Notes under the pieces: generated by a model
Database searches by the model: none
Told to the model about the DNA's origin: nothing
What the model saw: only the letters and a program-made list of their open reading frames with translations
Part shown: in pieces, positions 3,191-13,427 of the stretch
Position numbering within the stretch: position 1 is the first letter of the stretch
How the letters are laid out: every line of letters begins with the position of its first letter
Made by a program: the position numbers and the translations under genes
Source: Chloroflexota bacterium
GTDB taxonomy: Bacteria; Chloroflexota; UBA6077; FW602-bin22; JAMCYS01
Length of the DNA: 64,000 nucleotides
Reading direction: 5' to 3'
Assembly (NCBI GenBank): GCA_023473795.1
Contig: JAMCYS010000098.1
Span: 1 to 64,000 of the forward strand

Positions 3191-5719
3191 CTATGGCGCT
3201 ACCGTGAGCGCTCCGATCTGGACGTAGCCGCGGGCCGGAGCGGCGCCGTCGACGGCTAGCTGCCTGTTTCCGCCCCCGGTGTCGAAAAGGCCGAAGATGA
3301 TCTGATACTGGCCCGGCGCCAGGTCTGGCGGCACCCGCAACTTCAGTTCGTCCTTGTAGAAGCGGTCGGACTGCCAGAGCCGGGTGAGCATGTTGTTGGC
3401 GCGCAGCCCTTCCGCCCGGGCAACCGGCGCGGCGCCGGGCTGGGTCACCAGGGCCACGTAGGACCCATAGTCCGCGCCCAGGCTGGCCTGGGGCTGCCAG
3501 TATAGTCTCACGTTCAACGTCTCGCCCGGCCGTGCTTGCCTTGCCGGCAGATCGTAGCCCAGCGCCGCTATCCTGCCCTCGAACGAGACGAAGAGCTGGT
3601 TTTGAGCCGGGTGCGCCGTGTTCGTTGGTGATGTGTAGCGGAACCAGTCGGCCTGCCCGTCGAGAAAGGCCAGCTTGCCGGCAAATAGCACCACCGCTAC
3701 CAGGGCGAGCGACCACGCTCCCGTATGGCTCTCCCTCTCTGGGGTCGGCAGGGCGGGGCGGCGCTGGCGGCGGGCTGCCCAGGCCGCGGCCAGGAGCAGG
3801 GCCAGGACTATTGCCGCCATGACGGAGAGGTAATCCCCCGCCTGGGCGAGGGGAGTCTGCTCGAACCGTAACTCCACCACGTGGTCGCCCGCGGGGACGG
3901 TGAACGTCACCCAGCCGAGGTCGTAGCCATCGAAATGGGTCACCGGCGTCTCGCGGCCGTCCACGTAGGCGTGCCAGGCCGGGTAGTAAAGAAGTCGGAA
4001 AAGCAAAGACACGTCCTTGGCCGCGCTCAAGCGGTAGGCCTCGTAGTCTCCCTTCTGGGCCAGCAGGTCGGCCCGCACCTGGGCGTCCTCCGGCAGCATT
4101 GTCCTATCGAGACGCTCCGCGGGCCGGCCATCGGGCAGGTTGCTGCTGCCTTCCTTCTCCACCGGCACCCATTTGGCCCAAATCGGCAGAAACTCCGACC
4201 GCCAGGACGTGCCCAGCGAGCCCGACCAGCGCTCGTAGGCGAGCGCCGAACCCAGCGAGGCGTCGCCCACCCGCTGCTCTGGGCGCGAGAAGTCGGGGAA
4301 GTAGAAGTAGGGGCCCAGCGACAGCAGCAGAGCCAGCGCGGTGGCGGAGAGTAGCACCGGCGGCGCCAACCGGGCTGGCCGACCGCCTCCCCGCGGCAGC
4401 CAGAGCGCGGTCGCGCCCCCCAGTGCCACAACGCCGACGTTGGCCAGGTCCAGGAACCGCCAGGGGAATTGCACCAAGCCGCCAAAGGGCAGTGCCTGCC
4501 AGACGAAGGCGGAGGCGGAGGTGGAGAGGAAGGCAAAGACGGCGGCCAGCGCCCCGAAGAAGGCCATCTCCAGGCTGGCGCCTGTGGGCGGCCGGCGCTT
4601 GGCCAGAGCCAACAAGCCGGCCGCCAGCAGAACTAGCTGCACGATCCCGAGGCGGTGGTCGGGCAGGGCCGCGTTCTCGTGGAGGTCGACCGGCAACTGC
4701 GGCAGGAAAATCTGCTGCCAGGGCAGGAAGTAGTCACGGTAGTCGGCCCCAATCGGCGGCAGCAGGTTCTGGATCTGCACCCACTGCCGTTCTCCCAGGG
4801 CGGGCAACCAGAAGAAGGCGCTCAGCGCCAGCCCCAGGGCGAGGGCGGCGAGCAGGTAGGGCGCCGCCCGCCTGCGCTCGCCAGGCAGCACGAGGACGGC
4901 GCAGTAGGCGGCCAGGGCGCTGCTGCCGTAGAAGGCGGTGAGATTGTGGCTGAGGGCGAGCAGGGCGTAGAGGCCACTGGCCAGGGCCAGGCCGCCCGGG
5001 CCCGGGGCCAGAGATAGCCGTCGCAGCGCCCAGAAGACCCACGGCAGCAGCGCCAGCGCCAGCAATTCGGCCAGGTCGGCGCGCTGATAGGCCTGCAAGA
5101 AGGCCAGCGGCGAGTAGGCATAGGCCAGGGCCGCCAATAGCCCGGCGTTGAGGCCCAGAAGATCACGAGCAAGGAGGAAAGCGCCGGCTGCCGCCAGCAC
5201 CGTGGCGAGCGCCAGGGCCGTCTTCAGACTATCCACGGCGTCGAGGCCGACAACGTGTACCAGCGCCTGCAGGTAATTTCCCAGTGGGGCGTAGAAGTTG
5301 AAGATTGGGTAGCCGAGCCCCTGGACGAAGTCCGGCGCCCAGCGCGGGTAGAAGGTACCCTCGGCCAGGCACGCCTCCAACTGCACGGCGCGGAAGAGGT
5401 GGTAGAGCCCATCCGAGGTCGCTCTCAGGCCCGGCGCCAGCAGCGGCGTCAGCAGGGCCAGCGGCGGCAGCAGCACCGGCAGGAACGGCGCCTGCCGTGA
5501 GCGGACGGCAGGTGCGCCCGTATCGAGTACCGCCGATCCGGCGACTGGCGCCGGCCTGACCGCGGTGGCCGATGGTTCGCCGGGCTGCAAAGTGGCCTGC
5601 ACCGGCTGGTGCGTGGGCCCTTGCCGATTCTTCGGGCTCAACCGCGTTCTCCCAGAGAGGTGTCGGCCGCGGGGCAAACAGGGGGAAGGGCCACGGCCAG
5701 GGCGCCTATCATAGGCCAA
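3191..5719 (-). CDS. Large polytopic membrane protein, PTPS-related/YfhO-like
   Basis: About 842 residues with many hydrophobic helices. It matches the 6-pyruvoyl-tetrahydropterin-synthase-related membrane family, GT-C-like proteins of unknown substrate. Diagnostic segments: SDGLYHLFRAVQLE near residue 102, YPRWAPDFVQGLGYPIFNFY, QRADLAELLALALLPW, ALSHNLTAFY and LALSAFFWLPALGERQ. The C-terminal half has an extracytoplasmic beta-rich part (LLYYPAWHAYVDGRE) before further helices. Probable role in envelope polysaccharide or lipid glycosylation is inferred from YfhO-type relatives. Start is taken as TTG at 5719, but the first ~70 residues are low-complexity and the true start may be internal. A shattered paralogue lies immediately upstream at 6027-7671. 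Confidence 0.75.
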   Translation of the reverse strand: MAYDRRPGRGPSPCLPRGRHLSGRTRLSPKNRQGPTHQPVQATLQPGEPSATAVRPAPVAGSAVLDTGAPAVRSRQAPFLPVLLPPLALLTPLLAPGLRATSDGLYHLFRAVQLEACLAEGTFYPRWAPDFVQGLGYPIFNFYAPLGNYLQALVHVVGLDAVDSLKTALALATVLAAAGAFLLARDLLGLNAGLLAALAYAYSPLAFLQAYQRADLAELLALALLPWVFWALRRLSLAPGPGGLALASGLYALLALSHNLTAFYGSSALAAYCAVLVLPGERRRAAPYLLAALALGLALSAFFWLPALGERQWVQIQNLLPPIGADYRDYFLPWQQIFLPQLPVDLHENAALPDHRLGIVQLVLLAAGLLALAKRRPPTGASLEMAFFGALAAVFAFLSTSASAFVWQALPFGGLVQFPWRFLDLANVGVVALGGATALWLPRGGGRPARLAPPVLLSATALALLLSLGPYFYFPDFSRPEQRVGDASLGSALAYERWSGSLGTSWRSEFLPIWAKWVPVEKEGSSNLPDGRPAERLDRTMLPEDAQVRADLLAQKGDYEAYRLSAAKDVSLLFRLLYYPAWHAYVDGRETPVTHFDGYDLGWVTFTVPAGDHVVELRFEQTPLAQAGDYLSVMAAIVLALLLAAAWAARRQRRPALPTPERESHTGAWSLALVAVVLFAGKLAFLDGQADWFRYTSPTNTAHPAQNQLFVSFEGRIAALGYDLPARQARPGETLNVRLYWQPQASLGADYGSYVALVTQPGAAPVARAEGLRANNMLTRLWQSDRFYKDELKLRVPPDLAPGQYQIIFGLFDTGGGNRQLAVDGAAPARGYVQIGALTVAP

Positions 5720-6026
5720 GCTGGGTCGGCGGTCAACCCGAGGCAGCCAGGGCGCCGTTCCTGGTAGCGTGGTGCCGCGCCCGTACTCCAGCTGGACGGG
5801 CGGGATGAAGCGACGTCATTGGTAGGGTCACCGTTCGTAATAGGCCGATCACTTGCCCCCGCTGTTAGGGGGTCACCGCCCCCGTTCTCCGGATAGACGG
5901 GCGTGCTAAAGCTCGCTACTACGAACGGCGGTCGTTCCGGCAAGCATGCTTCAGTGCGACAGGGCCACGACGAGCGGCGGGCAATCTGAGATGGAGAGCG
6001 GCAGCTAGTTCCACTAGTTGGCGGGG
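5720..6026. other. Non-coding gap between intact and broken membrane-protein paralogues
   Basis: No gene, clear promoter or repeat is recognised. Similarity to the PTPS-related family stops at about 6030, so this stretch is either unrelated spacer or decayed beyond recognition. Confidence 0.4.
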
Positions 6027-7671
6027 TCAAGTGTGCTCGCCCAGGGCCGGCAGCCAGAGGAAGGCGCTGAGGGCCAGGCCGAGCACGATAGCGGCAGCCA
6101 AGTAGCTGGCCACGCGCCAGTTCCTCATCGACAGCACGAGGACCAGGCAGAAAGTCGCTAGGACTGCGCTGAAGGAGAAGGCGGTTAGATTGTGGCTGAG
6201 GATCAGCACGGCGTAGAGGACGCTCGCCGCTGCGACGCGGCCTACGCTGGGCTCAGCGGCGAGCCGACGGAAAGACCAGAGCGCGAACGGCAGCTCGCCC
6301 ACCGCCAGCAGTTCAGCTAGGTCGGCTCGGACGAAGGCGTGCATGCAAACGGCGGGCGCATAGACGTAGGCCAGCGCTGCCAATATGCCCCCGTGCCAGC
6401 CCAGTAAGTCGCGTCCCAGCAGAAACATACCAACGCTGGCGGCGTCGTCCCCGGCGGGGAGGAGTAGCGGAACCAGTTCGCGTTCGGGTCCAGGACGAGA
6501 TATCTGAACACGAGTAGGCCGACGATCGTCAGGGCGAGGGTCCAGGCCGTTGTTGCTGCTTGTTCGGTGGAAGGGTGGGATACCTGAGGAGGGCGTCGTC
6601 GCCAGATGGCCAAGCCCACGAGCCCTGCTAGAACCAGCAAGGCCACCAGAGAGAGTCCGCTGGCCACCTGTACCAGGGGCGTTGCCTCGAAGCGCAGCTC
6701 GACCAGGTGTTCTCCCGCCGGAATTGTGAACGTCACCCAGCCCAGACCATCTGGGCTGTAGGGCCCAACCACAAGTTCGCGGCCGTCGGCGTAGGCATGC
6801 CAGGCGGGGTAGTAAAGCACCTCATACAGAACTGTGACGTCCTTAGGGGTGCTGACGCGGTGTGCCTCGTAGTCGCCGCGTTGGGCGAGTAGCGTGGCCT
6901 TGATATTCAGGTCAGGTGGAAAGGCGCTCAGGGCCAGGCCCAGGACCATCGCTGCCCCGAGAAAGAGCGCTGCCCGCCAAGTTCGTCTATGGATGAGCAG
7001 AACGGCACAGTACACGGCGAGGACGGGGCTAAGAAAGAGACTGGTCAGGTTGTGGCTGAGCACGAGAGCGGCGTACAAGGCGCCAGAAACCGCGAGACGG
7101 CCGGCGCTAGGCAAAGTAGCTAGGCGCCGGAATGACCACAGGAGCTGAGGGCATACATATAGAATACTGGGGCGTAAACGAAGGTTAGCGCTGCGGGCAA
7201 GGCGCCGTTCGTACCCAGCAGGTCTCGGGCGAAGAGGAACATGCTCAAGCTGCCGGCGACCACTGCGATGATGAGAGAAACCTTGAGCGAAGCGACGAAG
7301 TCAAGGCCGGTCGCGTGGACGAGCAACTGCAAGTAGTTGGCAAGCGGAGCGTAGAAGTTGAAGATAGGGTAGCCCAGGCCCTGTATGAAGTCCGCCGCCC
7401 AGCGAGGATACCAGATGCCCTCGGCGACGGCGGCGTTCAGCTCAACGGCGCGAAAGAGGTGGTACCAACCGTCGTCAGCGCGGGGCAGGCCCGGTCCTAG
7501 TAACGGCGCCAGCATGACCAGAGGCAGTAACATGACCGGCAGCAGCACAACCCGCCCCAGTGCGGCGTGCCGATGCGGGGCTCGCGGCTGAGCCGGCGGC
7601 CGTACCGTAGGCGGCGCTACGTATTCGTGGGCTGGGACACGACTCGGCAGATAGCTGTCCTTCATACCCAA
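6027..7671 (-). pseudogene. Mosaic remnant of one or two PTPS-related membrane protein genes
   Basis: Three coding pieces correspond, out of order, to the intact neighbour at 3191-5719. Piece 1 (7671 to ~7140) is the N-terminal third, ending at YMYAL, followed by a frameshift and loss of the equivalent of ~20 codons (the RADLAELLA region). Piece 2 (7114 to ~6460) resumes at LWSFRRLA and ALVLSHNLT, then jumps from LALSAF directly to the C-terminal domain (LLAQRGDYEAHR, LYYPAWHAYADGRE), missing roughly 250 residues, and stops at NWFRYSSPPG. Piece 3 (6428-6027) then restarts at FLLGRDLLGWHGG and repeats the middle domain through LWLPALGE before ending. A single gene cannot give this order, so at least two copies were collapsed or joined. 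Confidence 0.75.
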
Positions 7672-8057
7672 CCTGTCGTCGAGCTAGCGGTGGCAGTCTC
7701 GCCAGATGGGGCCCCGGAAACCCAGCAAAATGCGGCGCTATCATAATTGGCTGGCTGGCACCGGTCAACACTTACCCCTACGACGAATCCGGCGGTCAAT
7801 CTGGGAGTGGGAGAGCAAAGCCGCGGGCTGTCCTGGAGGGGCGCCTGCCTGCCAGGCCGAGGGCGGCAAGGTGGGATAAGGCATGTCCCGGTGCCAATCT
7901 AGCGAAACGAGACGGTTGAACGTATCCTGTCACGGGGCAGACCGGGCGGGGCAGACGGTTGGCGCTGGCCGGCGGACCTGGCGTGCGGCGCACTCGCACA
8001 AGGACTGGCGCTGAAGCGGCTCTGCTGCGCGGATTGGGGAGCCGGCTCTGGGGCCGG
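7672..8057. other. Intergenic stretch without recognised features
   Basis: Nothing convincing is seen between the broken membrane protein and the small Cys-rich gene. Short open frames here lack homology and good starts. Confidence 0.4.
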
Positions 8058-8267
8058 CTAACGCGGCACGGGGTGGAGAAGTCGGCTGACGTCTTCGCAG
8101 TCGGACTCGTACCAGAAGGAAAAGCGCTCGGCGCTGGCGTCCAGCCGGCGACCAAGGTCGCAGCTGGCTGGCATCTCCGGCAGCGCGCAGCCTACTAGGC
8201 CGCAGTGCAGCCGCACGACGCCGTCGAAGCGGCCCGTGGAACTGTAGCAACATTGGTTGCACGTCAT
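8058..8267 (-). CDS. Small cysteine-rich hypothetical protein
   Basis: A 69-residue protein with seven Cys (positions 3, 6, 7, 22, 27, 36, 57), starting MTCNQCCYSS. The pattern CxxCC followed by spaced Cys suggests metal binding or disulphides, but I recognise no family. The ATG at 8267 has a very strong purine-rich ribosome site (GAGGAGGAGAC) at good spacing, the main reason to believe the gene. It sits about 230 bp downstream of nadE on the same strand. Function is unknown. Confidence 0.5.
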   Translation of the reverse strand: MTCNQCCYSSTGRFDGVVRLHCGLVGCALPEMPASCDLGRRLDASAERFSFWYESDCEDVSRLLHPVPR

Positions 8268-8496
8268 GCTGTGTCTCCTCCTCTTGCCCCGCAAGCAGAA
8301 AAGCAAGAAGGCCGGAAGGCGCTCTTCCCCGGGGCTCTGAACCTCTCGCCCTCGGGAGATCCCGCGCCCAGCAGCGGGCGCACGGCCGCCATCCCGGCCC
8401 TCGACAACGCGATTGTATCACAGCCTGGCCAGGAGCGCTATCAGCGGGCCGCCCAAATCGGGCGCTCGCCAGCTGTGCGGCCGGCACAGTCCCTGT

Positions 8497-10224
8497 CTAA
8501 CCCCGATAGCGATTGGTGATCGGCAGCCTGCGGTCGCGCCCGAAGGCCCGGGGGCTGATCTTCACGCCCGGCGGCGCCTGCCGGCGCTTGTACTCGCTGC
8601 GGTCCACTAGGGCAATCACCCGCCGCACGGTCTCCTCGGGACAGCCCAAAGCCACGATCTCCTCCGCGCTGCGGTCCTCCTCCACGTAGGCGTGCAGGAT
8701 CGGATCGAGTATTGGATAAGGGGGTAGGCTGTCGCTGTCCTTCTGATCGGGTCGCAGCTCCGCCGAGGGTGGCTTCTCCAACACGGCCGGGGGGATCACC
8801 GGCTTTTCGCCCAGCGTGTTGCGGTAGCGGCACAGCTCGTACACTTCACCCTTGAGCACGTCCTTGATCACGGCGAAGCCGCCCGCCATGTCGCCATAGA
8901 GGGTGGCGTAGCCGGTGGCCATCTCGCTCTTGTTACCAGTGGTGAGCACCAGGTGGCCGAACTTGTTGGAAAGCGCCATCATGATGTTGCCGCGCAGACG
9001 CGCCTGGAGGTTCTCCTCCGCTAGGCCGGGCTCCGTGCCCTGGAAGGAGGGAGCGAGCGTGTGCAGAGCCGCGCCGAACATCTCCTCGATGGGAACTGTC
9101 TTGATCGCCATGCCCAGGTTGTCCGCCAGCGCGACGGCGTCGTCTTTGCTGCCCGCCGAGGAATAGCGGGAAGGCATCGATACGCCCATCACCTGCTCCG
9201 GGCCCAGAGCGTCGGCGGCGATGGCGGCGACCAGGCTGGAATCGATGCCGCCAGAGAGGCCGATCAGCACCTTCTGGAAGCCGTTCTTGTGTACGTAGTC
9301 CCGAGTGCCCAGCACGAGGGCCTGGTAGACCTCCGCTGGAGCCTCCAGGGGCGCGGCCAGTCGCGCCTCCAGAGGTGGCCGCTCCCTGGCGGCGACGTCG
9401 GCCAGAACCGCGGACTGGCTCGCCGTCGGCTCTGCCGCGATCGCCTGGCGGCGGCGAGGGTCGTGCAGGCGGGCGCGGAAGACCGCCTCGGCGTCCACGT
9501 CTGCCACTAGCAGCTCCTCGGCGAACTCGACTGCCCGGGCCACGATCTGCCCCTGCTGGTCGAAGACCGCGCTGGCGCCGTCGAAGACGAGCTCATCCTG
9601 GCCGCCCACCGTATTGACGTAACAGACGATTGCCGAGTTGTCGGCGGCCCTGGTGGCCAGCATCTTCTCGCGGAAGAGCCGCTTGCCGGCGTGGTAGGGC
9701 GAGGCATTGATGTTCACCAGCACCTCAGCCCCGGCCATGGCCTGGCGGGTGGGCGGGCCGACCGGGTACCAGATGTCCTCGCAAACGCTGACGCCGAAGG
9801 TAGTGCCGCGCAGCGAGAAAATGGGCGACTCGCCGCCCCGCCGGAAGTAGCGTTCCTCGTCGAACACCCCGTAGTTGGGCAGGTACTCCTTGTGGTAGAC
9901 GCCCACGATTTCGCCGTCGTGCAGGATGGCGGCAGCGTTGTAGAGGTCGTCGGCCAGGTCCACGAAACCGACGACGGCGGTGATGCCGTGGCAGGTAGCG
10001 GCCAGGCGGCGCAGCTGCGCCAGGTTGTCGCGCACGAACTGCGGCTTGAGCAGCAAGTCCTCGGGCGGATAGCCTGTGACGGCGAGTTCCGGGAAGGCCA
10101 CCAGGTCGGCGCCCGCCGCTCGTGCCCTCTCCAGATAGTCGGCTATCTTGGCCGTGTTGCCGGCGAGGTCGCCGACGGTAGGATTGATCTGGGCGAGGGC
10201 GATGCGCAGGCTGCGAGTTTTCAT
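8497..10224 (-). CDS. nadE: Glutamine-dependent NAD+ synthetase
   Basis: About 575 residues in two domains. The N-terminal nitrilase-like glutaminase domain shows the Glu-Lys-Cys triad context (AFPELAVTGYPPED, YHKEYLPNYGVF, GVSVCEDIWYP). The C-terminal ATP-dependent NAD synthetase domain shows the pyrophosphatase P-loop LIGLSGGIDSS and the TTGNKSEMATGY segment. It converts deamido-NAD to NAD using glutamine. Start ATG at 10224 (MKTRSLRIALAQINP) fits the family N-terminus better than an upstream in-frame ATG at 10251. It is the last large gene of a tldD-tldE-chrB-nadE minus-strand run. The first 13 codons are duplicated at 11176-11214 by the tandem duplication, but the gene itself is intact. 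Confidence 0.95.
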   Translation of the reverse strand: MKTRSLRIALAQINPTVGDLAGNTAKIADYLERARAAGADLVAFPELAVTGYPPEDLLLKPQFVRDNLAQLRRLAATCHGITAVVGFVDLADDLYNAAAILHDGEIVGVYHKEYLPNYGVFDEERYFRRGGESPIFSLRGTTFGVSVCEDIWYPVGPPTRQAMAGAEVLVNINASPYHAGKRLFREKMLATRAADNSAIVCYVNTVGGQDELVFDGASAVFDQQGQIVARAVEFAEELLVADVDAEAVFRARLHDPRRRQAIAAEPTASQSAVLADVAARERPPLEARLAAPLEAPAEVYQALVLGTRDYVHKNGFQKVLIGLSGGIDSSLVAAIAADALGPEQVMGVSMPSRYSSAGSKDDAVALADNLGMAIKTVPIEEMFGAALHTLAPSFQGTEPGLAEENLQARLRGNIMMALSNKFGHLVLTTGNKSEMATGYATLYGDMAGGFAVIKDVLKGEVYELCRYRNTLGEKPVIPPAVLEKPPSAELRPDQKDSDSLPPYPILDPILHAYVEEDRSAEEIVALGCPEETVRRVIALVDRSEYKRRQAPPGVKISPRAFGRDRRLPITNRYRG

Positions 10225-10317
10225 TCTGTCTGTCTGCCTTTCCGTTGGCATTCTGACTGCGGGAATGATAACACAGCTCCCCCAGACTGGCCGGGTAGGG
10301 CAGAACCAGGCCTCGCC

Positions 10318-10779
10318 TCACTTGTAAGCGCCGTCCGGCTTACCGACCTTCACCATCTCCTGGCAGTAGGCGTAGAGGGCGTCGTAGACCAGCCGCTCGG
10401 CCGCGTTGACCTCCTGGTCGTCGGCGTAGCCGAGGTGGCGGAAGCCCTCGGCGATGGCGCCCAGGCCCGGCCCCTCAGGCTGGTGGTAGAGCGCGTTGTC
10501 GGTGTCCGCCCCGTTGACTATCTTGCCCAGCAGCGCGAGCGCCGGGTTGGCGGCCAGCTGGTACTTCTTGAGTATCGCCTCGAAGGAGCACTCTCGGTCG
10601 TGGTGGCCCAGCTCGGCACCGGCAACGTCGAAGGGGATGGCCCCCAGGCGCCGCGCCTCGCCCGCGACCTGAGCGGCGGGCACGAAGTAGAACTCGGCCT
10701 CCGGGTTGAGGAACTTCTTGATGAGCCACGGACAGGCGACCCGATCCACCTTCACGTGCTCGCGGGTGATCCACTTCAT
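10318..10779 (-). CDS. ChrB C-terminal-domain protein, copy 1
   Basis: A 153-residue protein consisting of the C-terminal domain of ChrB (chromate resistance exported/regulatory family). It begins MKWITREHVKVDRVACPWLI and contains the conserved CPWLIKKF and HHDRECSFE segments, whose Cys and His are plausible metal ligands. The N-terminal part of full-length ChrB is absent, as in many stand-alone members, and no ChrA chromate transporter is nearby, so a chromate role is not established. ATG at 10779 follows GGAGGTTAGCT. It lies upstream of nadE on the same strand. The gene is identical to the copy at 11308-11769. Confidence 0.85.
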   Translation of the reverse strand: MKWITREHVKVDRVACPWLIKKFLNPEAEFYFVPAAQVAGEARRLGAIPFDVAGAELGHHDRECSFEAILKKYQLAANPALALLGKIVNGADTDNALYHQPEGPGLGAIAEGFRHLGYADDQEVNAAERLVYDALYAYCQEMVKVGKPDGAYK

Positions 10780-11034
10780 AGCTAACCTCCACTTCACCGG
10801 CTCAACGGCGACGCGGTTTGGCGTACGGCCTGGCAATAGCCAGACCCCTATCATACTGCAGTTCAAGGGCGCGGCCGTTGCTCAACTACCCCTACAGTGC
10901 CCCTTCCCGGCAAGGCACATATGGAACCCCGGGCCCTCGCCCAGGCGCAAGAGCAGGCCCAGACCCGCGGGTAGACCGCCTGTGGCTGCAACGCGCTGGA
11001 TATGGGCGGGAATGATCGATCGCGAGCAGCGACA

Positions 11035-11068
11035 CGTGACACACCCCGAACACTCATGGTGTGTCACG
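11035..11068. terminator. Hairpin in duplicated unit, copy 1
   Basis: An 11-bp perfect inverted repeat around GTGACACACC with a 12-nt loop. It lies downstream of the tldE stop (here only a tldE tail) and upstream of chrB. No T-run is present. It could be a terminator or a processing/protein-binding site. Confidence 0.4.
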
Positions 11069-11099
11069 CTTGCAGTTGGCTAGCCGGGAGTCGAACCAG

Positions 11100-11175
11100 C
11101 TACAGCTCGCTGACGCCCGTGAAGTTCCAGCTCTTGACCTTGATGGCCGGCACCCGGCAGCCGCCGAGCTGGTCG
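11100..11175 (-). pseudogene. Orphan 3' fragment of tldE created by the duplication
   Basis: The last ~25 codons and stop of tldE are repeated here without the rest of the gene. The fragment follows directly on the orphan 5' end of nadE, so the nadE start codon at 11214 now opens a short out-of-frame chimeric reading frame of about 45 codons. Confidence 0.85.
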
Positions 11176-11214
11176 GATCTGGGCGAGGGCGATGCGCAGG
11201 CTGCGAGTTTTCAT
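11176..11214 (-). pseudogene. Orphan 5' fragment of nadE created by the duplication
   Basis: The first 13 codons of nadE, with its start region, are repeated here and joined to the tldE tail. It cannot give a functional product. Confidence 0.85.
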
Positions 11215-11307
11215 TCTGTCTGTCTGCCTTTCCGTTGGCATTCTGACTGCGGGAATGATAACACAGCTCCCCCAGACTGGCCGGGTAGGGCAGAACCAGG
11301 CCTCGCC

Positions 11308-11769
11308 TCACTTGTAAGCGCCGTCCGGCTTACCGACCTTCACCATCTCCTGGCAGTAGGCGTAGAGGGCGTCGTAGACCAGCCGCTCGGCCGCGTTGAC
11401 CTCCTGGTCGTCGGCGTAGCCGAGGTGGCGGAAGCCCTCGGCGATGGCGCCCAGGCCCGGCCCCTCAGGCTGGTGGTAGAGCGCGTTGTCGGTGTCCGCC
11501 CCGTTGACTATCTTGCCCAGCAGCGCGAGCGCCGGGTTGGCGGCCAGCTGGTACTTCTTGAGTATCGCCTCGAAGGAGCACTCTCGGTCGTGGTGGCCCA
11601 GCTCGGCACCGGCAACGTCGAAGGGGATGGCCCCCAGGCGCCGCGCCTCGCCCGCGACCTGAGCGGCGGGCACGAAGTAGAACTCGGCCTCCGGGTTGAG
11701 GAACTTCTTGATGAGCCACGGACAGGCGACCCGATCCACCTTCACGTGCTCGCGGGTGATCCACTTCAT
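11308..11769 (-). CDS. ChrB C-terminal-domain protein, copy 2
   Basis: Identical in sequence to the gene at 10318-10779: 153 residues, ATG at 11769 after GGAGGTTAGCT. This copy follows tldE directly, as in the presumed ancestral order tldD-tldE-chrB-nadE. If the duplication is real, gene dosage of this family is doubled, which would fit selection for its product. If it is an assembly artefact, only one copy exists. Confidence 0.8.
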   Translation of the reverse strand: MKWITREHVKVDRVACPWLIKKFLNPEAEFYFVPAAQVAGEARRLGAIPFDVAGAELGHHDRECSFEAILKKYQLAANPALALLGKIVNGADTDNALYHQPEGPGLGAIAEGFRHLGYADDQEVNAAERLVYDALYAYCQEMVKVGKPDGAYK

Positions 11770-12024
11770 AGCTAACCTCCACTTCACCGGCTCAACGGCG
11801 ACGCGGTTTGGCGTACGGCCTGGCAATAGCCAGACCCCTATCATACTGCAGTTCAAGGGCGCGGCCGTTGCTCAACTACCCCTACAGTGCCCCTTCCCGG
11901 CAAGGCACATATGGAACCCCGGGCCCTCGCCCAGGCGCAAGAGCAGGCCCAGACCCGCGGGTAGACCGCCTGTGGCTGCAACGCGCTGGATATGGGCGGG
12001 AATGATCGATCGCGAGCAGCGACA

Positions 12025-12058
12025 CGTGACACACCCCGAACACTCATGGTGTGTCACG
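12025..12058. terminator. Hairpin in duplicated unit, copy 2
   Basis: Same 11-bp perfect inverted repeat as at 11035-11068, here about 32 bp downstream of the real tldE stop codon. Its position supports a transcription end or RNA-stabilising role for the tldDE transcript, although no T-run follows. Confidence 0.45.
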
Positions 12059-12089
12059 CTTGCAGTTGGCTAGCCGGGAGTCGAACCAG

Positions 12090-13427
12090 CTACAGCTCGC
12101 TGACGCCCGTGAAGTTCCAGCTCTTGACCTTGATGGCCGGCACCCGGCAGCCGCCGAGCTGGTCGCGCAGCAGCTTGGTTTCCTTGGAGATGGCCTCGAC
12201 GTTGCGCAGCGCCTCCAGGTAGCTCTGGGTGAAGCGCAGATTGCGCACCGGCCGGACGATCTGCCCGTTCTCCACCAGGAACGTGCCGTCGCGCGTCATG
12301 CCGGTGAAGTGCATGGTGATGGGATGCACCGTGCGGGTATACCAAAAGCGGGTGACCAGCAAGCCGTGCCGCAGCGAGCGCACGAGGTCGTCGAGGCTGG
12401 AATCGCCGGCCTGCATGAACATATTCAAGGGCAACGGGCCGCCGGGGTTGGGCGCCGGCAGCGCGTGGCCGGTGGACTGCCTTCCCACCTTGTGGGCCGT
12501 GTAGGAATCGTACGCTACACCTTCGGCCGTGCCCTGGTTGAAGAACATCACTTTCTGCTTGGGCACGCCCTCATAGTCGAAAGGCAAGGGCAGGCCGGTG
12601 GGGTCCTGCCCGTCGTCCCAGAGGGAGACGTTTTCGCCCGCCAACCGCTGGCCGAGTTTCCCGCTCATGAAGCTGCGGTCTTCCTGGTAGGGCGTGGCCC
12701 CCAATCCCTCGTAGCCCAAGTTGTCGAGGATGTCGACGACGGCGTAATGGCTGAGTACCACCTCGTACTCGCCGGGCTCCAGCCCGGTCGCGTTGCGGCC
12801 GCGCAGGGCGCCCTCCACCGCCTCCTCGGCCAGGCTCTCGGTCGCGATTTCCCGCCAGTCCACCGCCACCTGGGCAGAGTAGCCGGAGCCATCGTCGGCC
12901 GTCACCACGCTGCTGAAGTCGGCCACCGTGGTAGCGGCGTACGCCTCCACCCCCAGGCTGTTGTGGACGGCCAGTTCATAGGTGCCCGTGCTGAAGGCGC
13001 CCGCCGCCGAGGCACCCGCTTGGAGTGCCCGGCGGCAAACCAGCAGCGCCACTTCGGCCCTGTCCTCGGGCGTGGCTTCGGCCGTGGCCGGCGAGTAGCC
13101 CTTGCCCTCCGACGCGGGCTTGGGGCCCGGCAGGGAGACGAAATCGGGGTTCTCCGGCTGCAGCCGGGCGATGCGGCTGGCCTCGTCCACCGTGCGCCGG
13201 ATGGAGCCCTGGGAAAGGTCGTTGGTTGTGGCCACGCCGATCTTCTTGCCGAAGACCACCCGCACGTGCAGGTCGGCGTTGCTCTCGGCCACGTTTTGGT
13301 GGATGTAGGAGTTGCTGAAACGGGTGAGTCCCGAGTCCTCGCCCATCAGCAGTACCTCCGTCTGGTCGGCCTGCGAGTGCTCTAGGGCCCGCTGGGCGAT
13401 CTCCTTTGCCTTCTCTCTACCGATCAC
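12090..13427 (-). CDS. tldE: TldE/PmbA-type subunit of the TldD/E protease
   Basis: 445 residues, full length for the PmbA/TldE family. As expected for this subunit it lacks the HExxxH motif that the partner TldD carries, and it keeps the family segments VVFGKKIGVATTNDLSQGS near the N-terminus and LPFDYEGVPKQKVMFFNQG centrally. TldD and TldE form a cytosolic heterodimeric zinc protease that trims unfolded peptides, for example modified-peptide precursors. ATG is at 13427, ten bases after the tldD stop, a clear two-gene operon. The last ~25 codons are duplicated at 11100-11175, but this gene is intact. Confidence 0.9.
   Translation of the reverse strand: MIGREKAKEIAQRALEHSQADQTEVLLMGEDSGLTRFSNSYIHQNVAESNADLHVRVVFGKKIGVATTNDLSQGSIRRTVDEASRIARLQPENPDFVSLPGPKPASEGKGYSPATAEATPEDRAEVALLVCRRALQAGASAAGAFSTGTYELAVHNSLGVEAYAATTVADFSSVVTADDGSGYSAQVAVDWREIATESLAEEAVEGALRGRNATGLEPGEYEVVLSHYAVVDILDNLGYEGLGATPYQEDRSFMSGKLGQRLAGENVSLWDDGQDPTGLPLPFDYEGVPKQKVMFFNQGTAEGVAYDSYTAHKVGRQSTGHALPAPNPGGPLPLNMFMQAGDSSLDDLVRSLRHGLLVTRFWYTRTVHPITMHFTGMTRDGTFLVENGQIVRPVRNLRFTQSYLEALRNVEAISKETKLLRDQLGGCRVPAIKVKSWNFTGVSEL

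Follow-up and report, generated by a model that had tools for sequence, protein, structure and literature searches.

Probable remains of two tandem pseudogenes beside an intact PTPS_related membrane protein gene in a Chloroflexota genome

Tandem paralogues that decay by deletion to pseudogenes are known in bacteria, and it is with this general pattern, rather than with any single case, that we compare the locus described here. The hallmark of GT-C glycosyltransferases is sugar transfer from a lipid-linked donor. The family to which the genes of this locus relate, PTPS_related (PF10131), is placed in the GT-C clan in an excerpt of PMC7801869, which lists its function as unknown.

The window, meaning the whole 64-kb stretch of DNA that was analysed, carries on its minus strand one intact gene, termed copy C, and upstream of it a stretch (7671-6036) made of four pieces that match copy C in the residue order 26-210, 226-302, 543-705 and 176-310. 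Copy C serves as the ruler for all residue numbers, in its 842-aa form starting at 5719 (5719-3191), and the same intact protein was the tblastn query against positions 5601-8500.

3191-5641, minus strand: copy C, intact PTPS_related membrane protein (PF10131); the mechanical open reading frame is 3191-5719
7151-7671, minus strand: N-terminal piece of copy A (A-N), C residues about 27-210, with a TTG start at 7671 or an ATG at 7665; tblastn match 7674-7096, residues 26-228, frame -2, 169 bits
6920-7150, minus strand: middle piece of copy A (A-M), C residues 226-302, frame shifted after an apparent deletion of about 46 nt; tblastn match 7162-6920, residues 222-302, frame -1, 79.7 bits
6434-6919, minus strand: C-terminal piece of copy A (A-C), C residues 543-705, in frame with A-M after an apparent loss of about 720 nt; tblastn match 6919-6434, residues 543-705, frame -1, 167 bits
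6036-6440, minus strand: middle piece of copy B (B-M), C residues 176-310, from a gene without both ends; tblastn match 6440-6006, residues 176-316, frame -3, 154 bits

Judged by eye, the homology of A-N ends at residue 210 (about 7151), that of A-M begins at residue 226 (7150) and that of B-M ends at residue 310 (6036); the 3' edge of A-C is known only to within about 10 nt and reaches past the assigned start of B. The scores of 79.7-169 bits compare with a top match of 30.0 bits (mean 23.4) in 100 codon-block shuffles of 5721-7700 and with 23.1 bits for the reversed stretch, confirming the odd order of pieces (N-terminal, middle, C-terminal, middle again) beside an intact paralogue given in a preliminary description of the locus. 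In gene direction, the joins lie at residues 210/226, 302/543, about 705 (A)/about 175 (B), and 310 (B)/intergenic DNA. The earlier jumps of 'about 20' and '250' codons were roughly right: with C as the ruler they come to 15 codons (about 46 nt, out of frame) and 240 codons (720 nt, in frame), and the sequence then steps back from about 705 to about 175. With a frame change and gaps in copy A, and both ends of B missing, the original reading frame is broken.

A further element separates copy C from the broken end of B.

5825-5980, no strand assigned: dispersed palindromic intergenic repeat

The ends of this repeat resemble CCGTTCGTAGTAGSGC, a pattern that occurs with at most one mismatch at 8 places, against 2 for the reversed pattern. 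The genome holds at least 13 matches to the repeat, itself included (40 of 53 candidates scored), and 11 of 12 loci examined align to it at E 0.01; its copies look assembled from re-used modules.

That at least two copies are involved, as the preliminary description had it, is borne out by residues 226-302, which are present twice, as A-M and B-M, in versions that are 61% identical in both protein and DNA over 77 aligned codons. Two copies, A and B, are thus needed besides the intact C. Amino acid identity to C is the same to within a percent for the three A pieces (52.0, 51.9 and 52.5%) and different for B-M (60.0%), as would be expected of a single copy A and a single copy B. The G+C content at third codon positions is 0.68-0.76 for A, 0.81 for B and 0.85 for C.

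The codon alignments among the copies are 57-65% identical, and in all six comparisons conservation is lowest at the third codon position, a pattern that constraint on C alone would likewise produce by reducing third-position identity. By the NG86 method the four pieces differ from C with dN of 0.33-0.45 and dS of 0.99-1.71, rates so near saturation that NG86 returns no dS for A-M against B-M or A-N against B-M. The YN00 contrasts between dN and dS are weaker, at 0.50/1.00 for A-M and 0.39/0.67 for B-M (0.33/0.84 with the pair reversed), the method giving no usable values for A-N and A-C. Read in their own frames (7671-7154, 7156-6920, 6919-6434 and 6440-6036), the four pieces contain no stop in 548 codons, a count in which open stretches are favoured because the piece limits were set by homology. 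Unconstrained sequence at such divergence would carry many stops, suggesting that A and B were long constrained. These sequence comparisons make it likely that constraint acted on both through most of the period after the duplication and that the DNA was deleted relatively recently.

A pair of promoter-like sites bears on the same question.

7740-7768, minus strand: promoter-like TTGACC-17-TATGAT before copy A
5708-5736, minus strand: promoter-like TTGACC-17-TATGAT before copy C

These two are the only exact matches to TTGACC-17-TATGAT on either strand of the 64 kb, and the only promoter-like sites in 5500-8600 (shuffle mean 0.2); a looser promoter pattern has four further matches in the window, on the plus strand. 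As MAFFT failed to align the second hexamers of the two upstream stretches, we used an ungapped comparison from the first hexamer instead, in which A and C are identical at 19 of 37 bases, 12 of them in the hexamers; of the 25 bases that lie outside the hexamers, 7 agree, which is chance level. The presence of this site in both A and C, together with the absence of stops from the pieces, makes the loss look recent relative to the duplication. Before B no promoter-like site was found in 5500-8600, as expected if the front of B was lost. The distance from the site to the aligned TTG is 69 nt in A and 67 nt in C, and these near-equal distances suggest that C starts at 5641. The mechanical start at 5719 overlaps C's own promoter-like site. 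Thus the TTG at 5641 is the likely start of copy C (816 aa), and we suggest this correction to the annotation of the intact gene.

Copy C reaches the PF10131 gathering cut-off of 26.4 with 55.5 bits, in a match that spans only profile positions 1-279 of 621, and no PDB chain was matched by its sequence at E 0.1. The B fragment scores 25.4 bits, below the cut-off (23.1 in the genome search), and the two ORFs of copy A have no Pfam family at E 0.01, so the relation of B-M and of A to the family rests on their 60% and 52% identity to C, respectively. Judging by its family alone, copy C may be a sugar-transferase-like membrane protein.

Our reading of the stretch is that two pseudogenes, A and B, very probably survive there as remnants of a tandem array A-B-C, with C its one intact member. 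Such an array of PTPS_related (GT-C-clan) membrane protein genes would be the product of duplication within this lineage, to judge from the relatives sampled, and A and B would have kept open frames through most of their history before losing DNA by four simple deletions. Two of these would lie within A (about 46 nt and about 720 nt); the third would have taken A's last 137 or so codons through B's first 175 or so, and the fourth would have removed about the last 530 codons of B. Every jump runs forward in gene direction through A-B-C, so four deletions suffice for the observed order. The preliminary description held that no single gene could decay into such an order, which stands for one gene; two neighbouring genes, on the other hand, can, by forward deletions. 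Ordinary pseudogene decay of duplicated genes is thus the most likely course, and the odd order of pieces requires no unusual mechanism. What the sequence itself shows is the order of the pieces, the two versions of the middle part, the open frames and the promoter-like hexamers common to A and C; that the ancestor was a tandem array, that it lost DNA by deletion and that this happened recently is what we infer. Counting against this reading, four clean deletions without any in-frame stop make for a rather tidy decay. An excerpt of PMC10292909 mentions a deletion bias in small indels, as reported by others, and describes its own large variants, arising de novo in wild-type E. coli, as biased towards insertions; given the latter bias, that paper alone, as excerpted, gives no support for decay through larger deletions.

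Relatives were sought in 61 genomes, of which 38, the present one included, have a match. None of the 60 other genomes searched belongs to the same family or genus, and the homologue with the best E-value among them (L085) is 34% identical to C. A search of genome_contigs gave seven loci that are just 27-39% identical. The ancestral intact array was not seen in the 60 genomes or the seven distant loci, none of which is close. For the trees, relatives came from 30 loci tried and were kept if the best match covered more than 60% of the part in question. FastTree groups A with C for the N part (21 relatives, support 0.998); for the M part (22 relatives) A, B and C group at 0.916, with B beside C at 0.825; for the C part (9 relatives) A and C group with a modest 0.828, A lying on a long branch (0.85 vs 0.23). 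With A, B and C clustering apart from the homologues of other genomes, the duplication would have occurred in this lineage, as far as sampled.

Of seven homologous loci that were inspected, one (L083) carries PMT_2 genes clustered with two long relatives, non-adjacent and both PTPS_related, and another (L084) has one long relative beside a PMT_2 gene; the Pfam scan covered these two and L085, which sits beside SelA and SelB genes and shows no NAD synthase among six neighbouring ORFs scanned. Clusters of such membrane proteins occur, and an adjacent close pair was not seen in these seven loci. Among the literature matches listed, no title concerns this gene array.

The organism might instead carry full copies of A and B, or differ between strains, with the assembler having joined parts of them. 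We consider such a mis-assembly unlikely, while acknowledging that the draft assembly consists of 170 contigs (completeness 95.94%, contamination 4.8%), that clean deletions without a stop codon fit an artefact too, and that the draft contains two exact two-copy tandem duplications, of 990 nt at 10186-12165 and of 2025 nt in contig C29. Assemblies built from short reads can misrepresent exact tandem duplications. Against this, no exact word shared among A, B and C exceeds 17 nt, which gives a k-mer assembler few places to jump, and the candidates scored from the assembly include no further copy of the membrane part. The preliminary description had suggested looking for more paralogues in the genome, and none of the membrane part emerged: a protein search that scored 16 of 57 candidates yielded 16 matches, five being copy C and the A and B pieces and the remaining 11 covering the C-terminal part alone (residues 609-841), and a family search (4 of 4 candidates scored) returned copy C and the B piece. 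With the mosaic as query, a DNA search, which is blind to gene parts that the mosaic lacks, gave five matches (40 of 89 candidates scored): four lie on contig C104, one being the mosaic and three falling in copy C, and the fifth is an exact match of 24 nt on contig C34 (E 2.7e-4). For the DNA upstream of A (7672-8060), the sole match was to itself.

The duplications themselves merit a brief description. Positions 10186-11175 and 11176-12165 are an exact head-to-tail repetition, 100% identical and without a spacer, that doubles a ChrB_C (PF09828) gene (10318-10866 and 11308-11856); it is flanked by a NAD synthase gene on one side and a PmbA/TldD-type gene on the other, both of which retain full domain matches. 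This doublet is either a recent duplication or an assembly artefact. The second exact tandem duplication (L069, contig C29, from 29888 onward) has a shift of 2025 nt and an identical run of 2026 nt, and the occurrence of two such perfect repeats in a single draft may reflect a tendency of the assembly.

Homologous (unequal) recombination of the tandem paralogues, proposed in the preliminary description, would be favoured by the tandem position of related copies and by both middle pieces stopping near the same motif (residues 302 and 310). A crossover between paralogues would connect equivalent residues (n to n+1), however, and none of the four joins does so; moreover, copies that are just 57-65% identical in codon alignments are poor partners, such identity being low for homologous recombination. 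We therefore regard it as a very improbable cause of the mosaic. Fainter still is the prospect that A's promoter still drives a transcript through the mosaic, that the in-frame A-M/A-C fusion or the RNA has a part in regulating or diversifying C, and that the mosaic is kept rather than merely decaying. We give almost no credence to a shortened functional gene, in which the in-frame A-M/A-C fusion (ORF 6317-7114) would be translated and used: the loss of 720 nt preserves the frame and leaves an open fused ORF, yet this ORF is out of frame with A's start, has no promoter-like site directly upstream and no Pfam match at E 0.01, and terminates by running into B in another frame.

Returning to decay of the array A-B-C, its consequences reach little beyond annotation: two neighbouring dead paralogues with few deletions may read as one shuffled gene. 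In comparison with PTPS_related (PF10131, GT-C clan), copy C is alike by its 55.5-bit match, which is partial, and has 34% identity to its best-E-value homologue. Like bacterial pseudogenes of tandem paralogues, the locus would consist of extra-copy remnants beside one intact copy, as open pieces broken by deletions; it would differ from them in that here four deletions across two adjacent copies give a shuffled-looking order.
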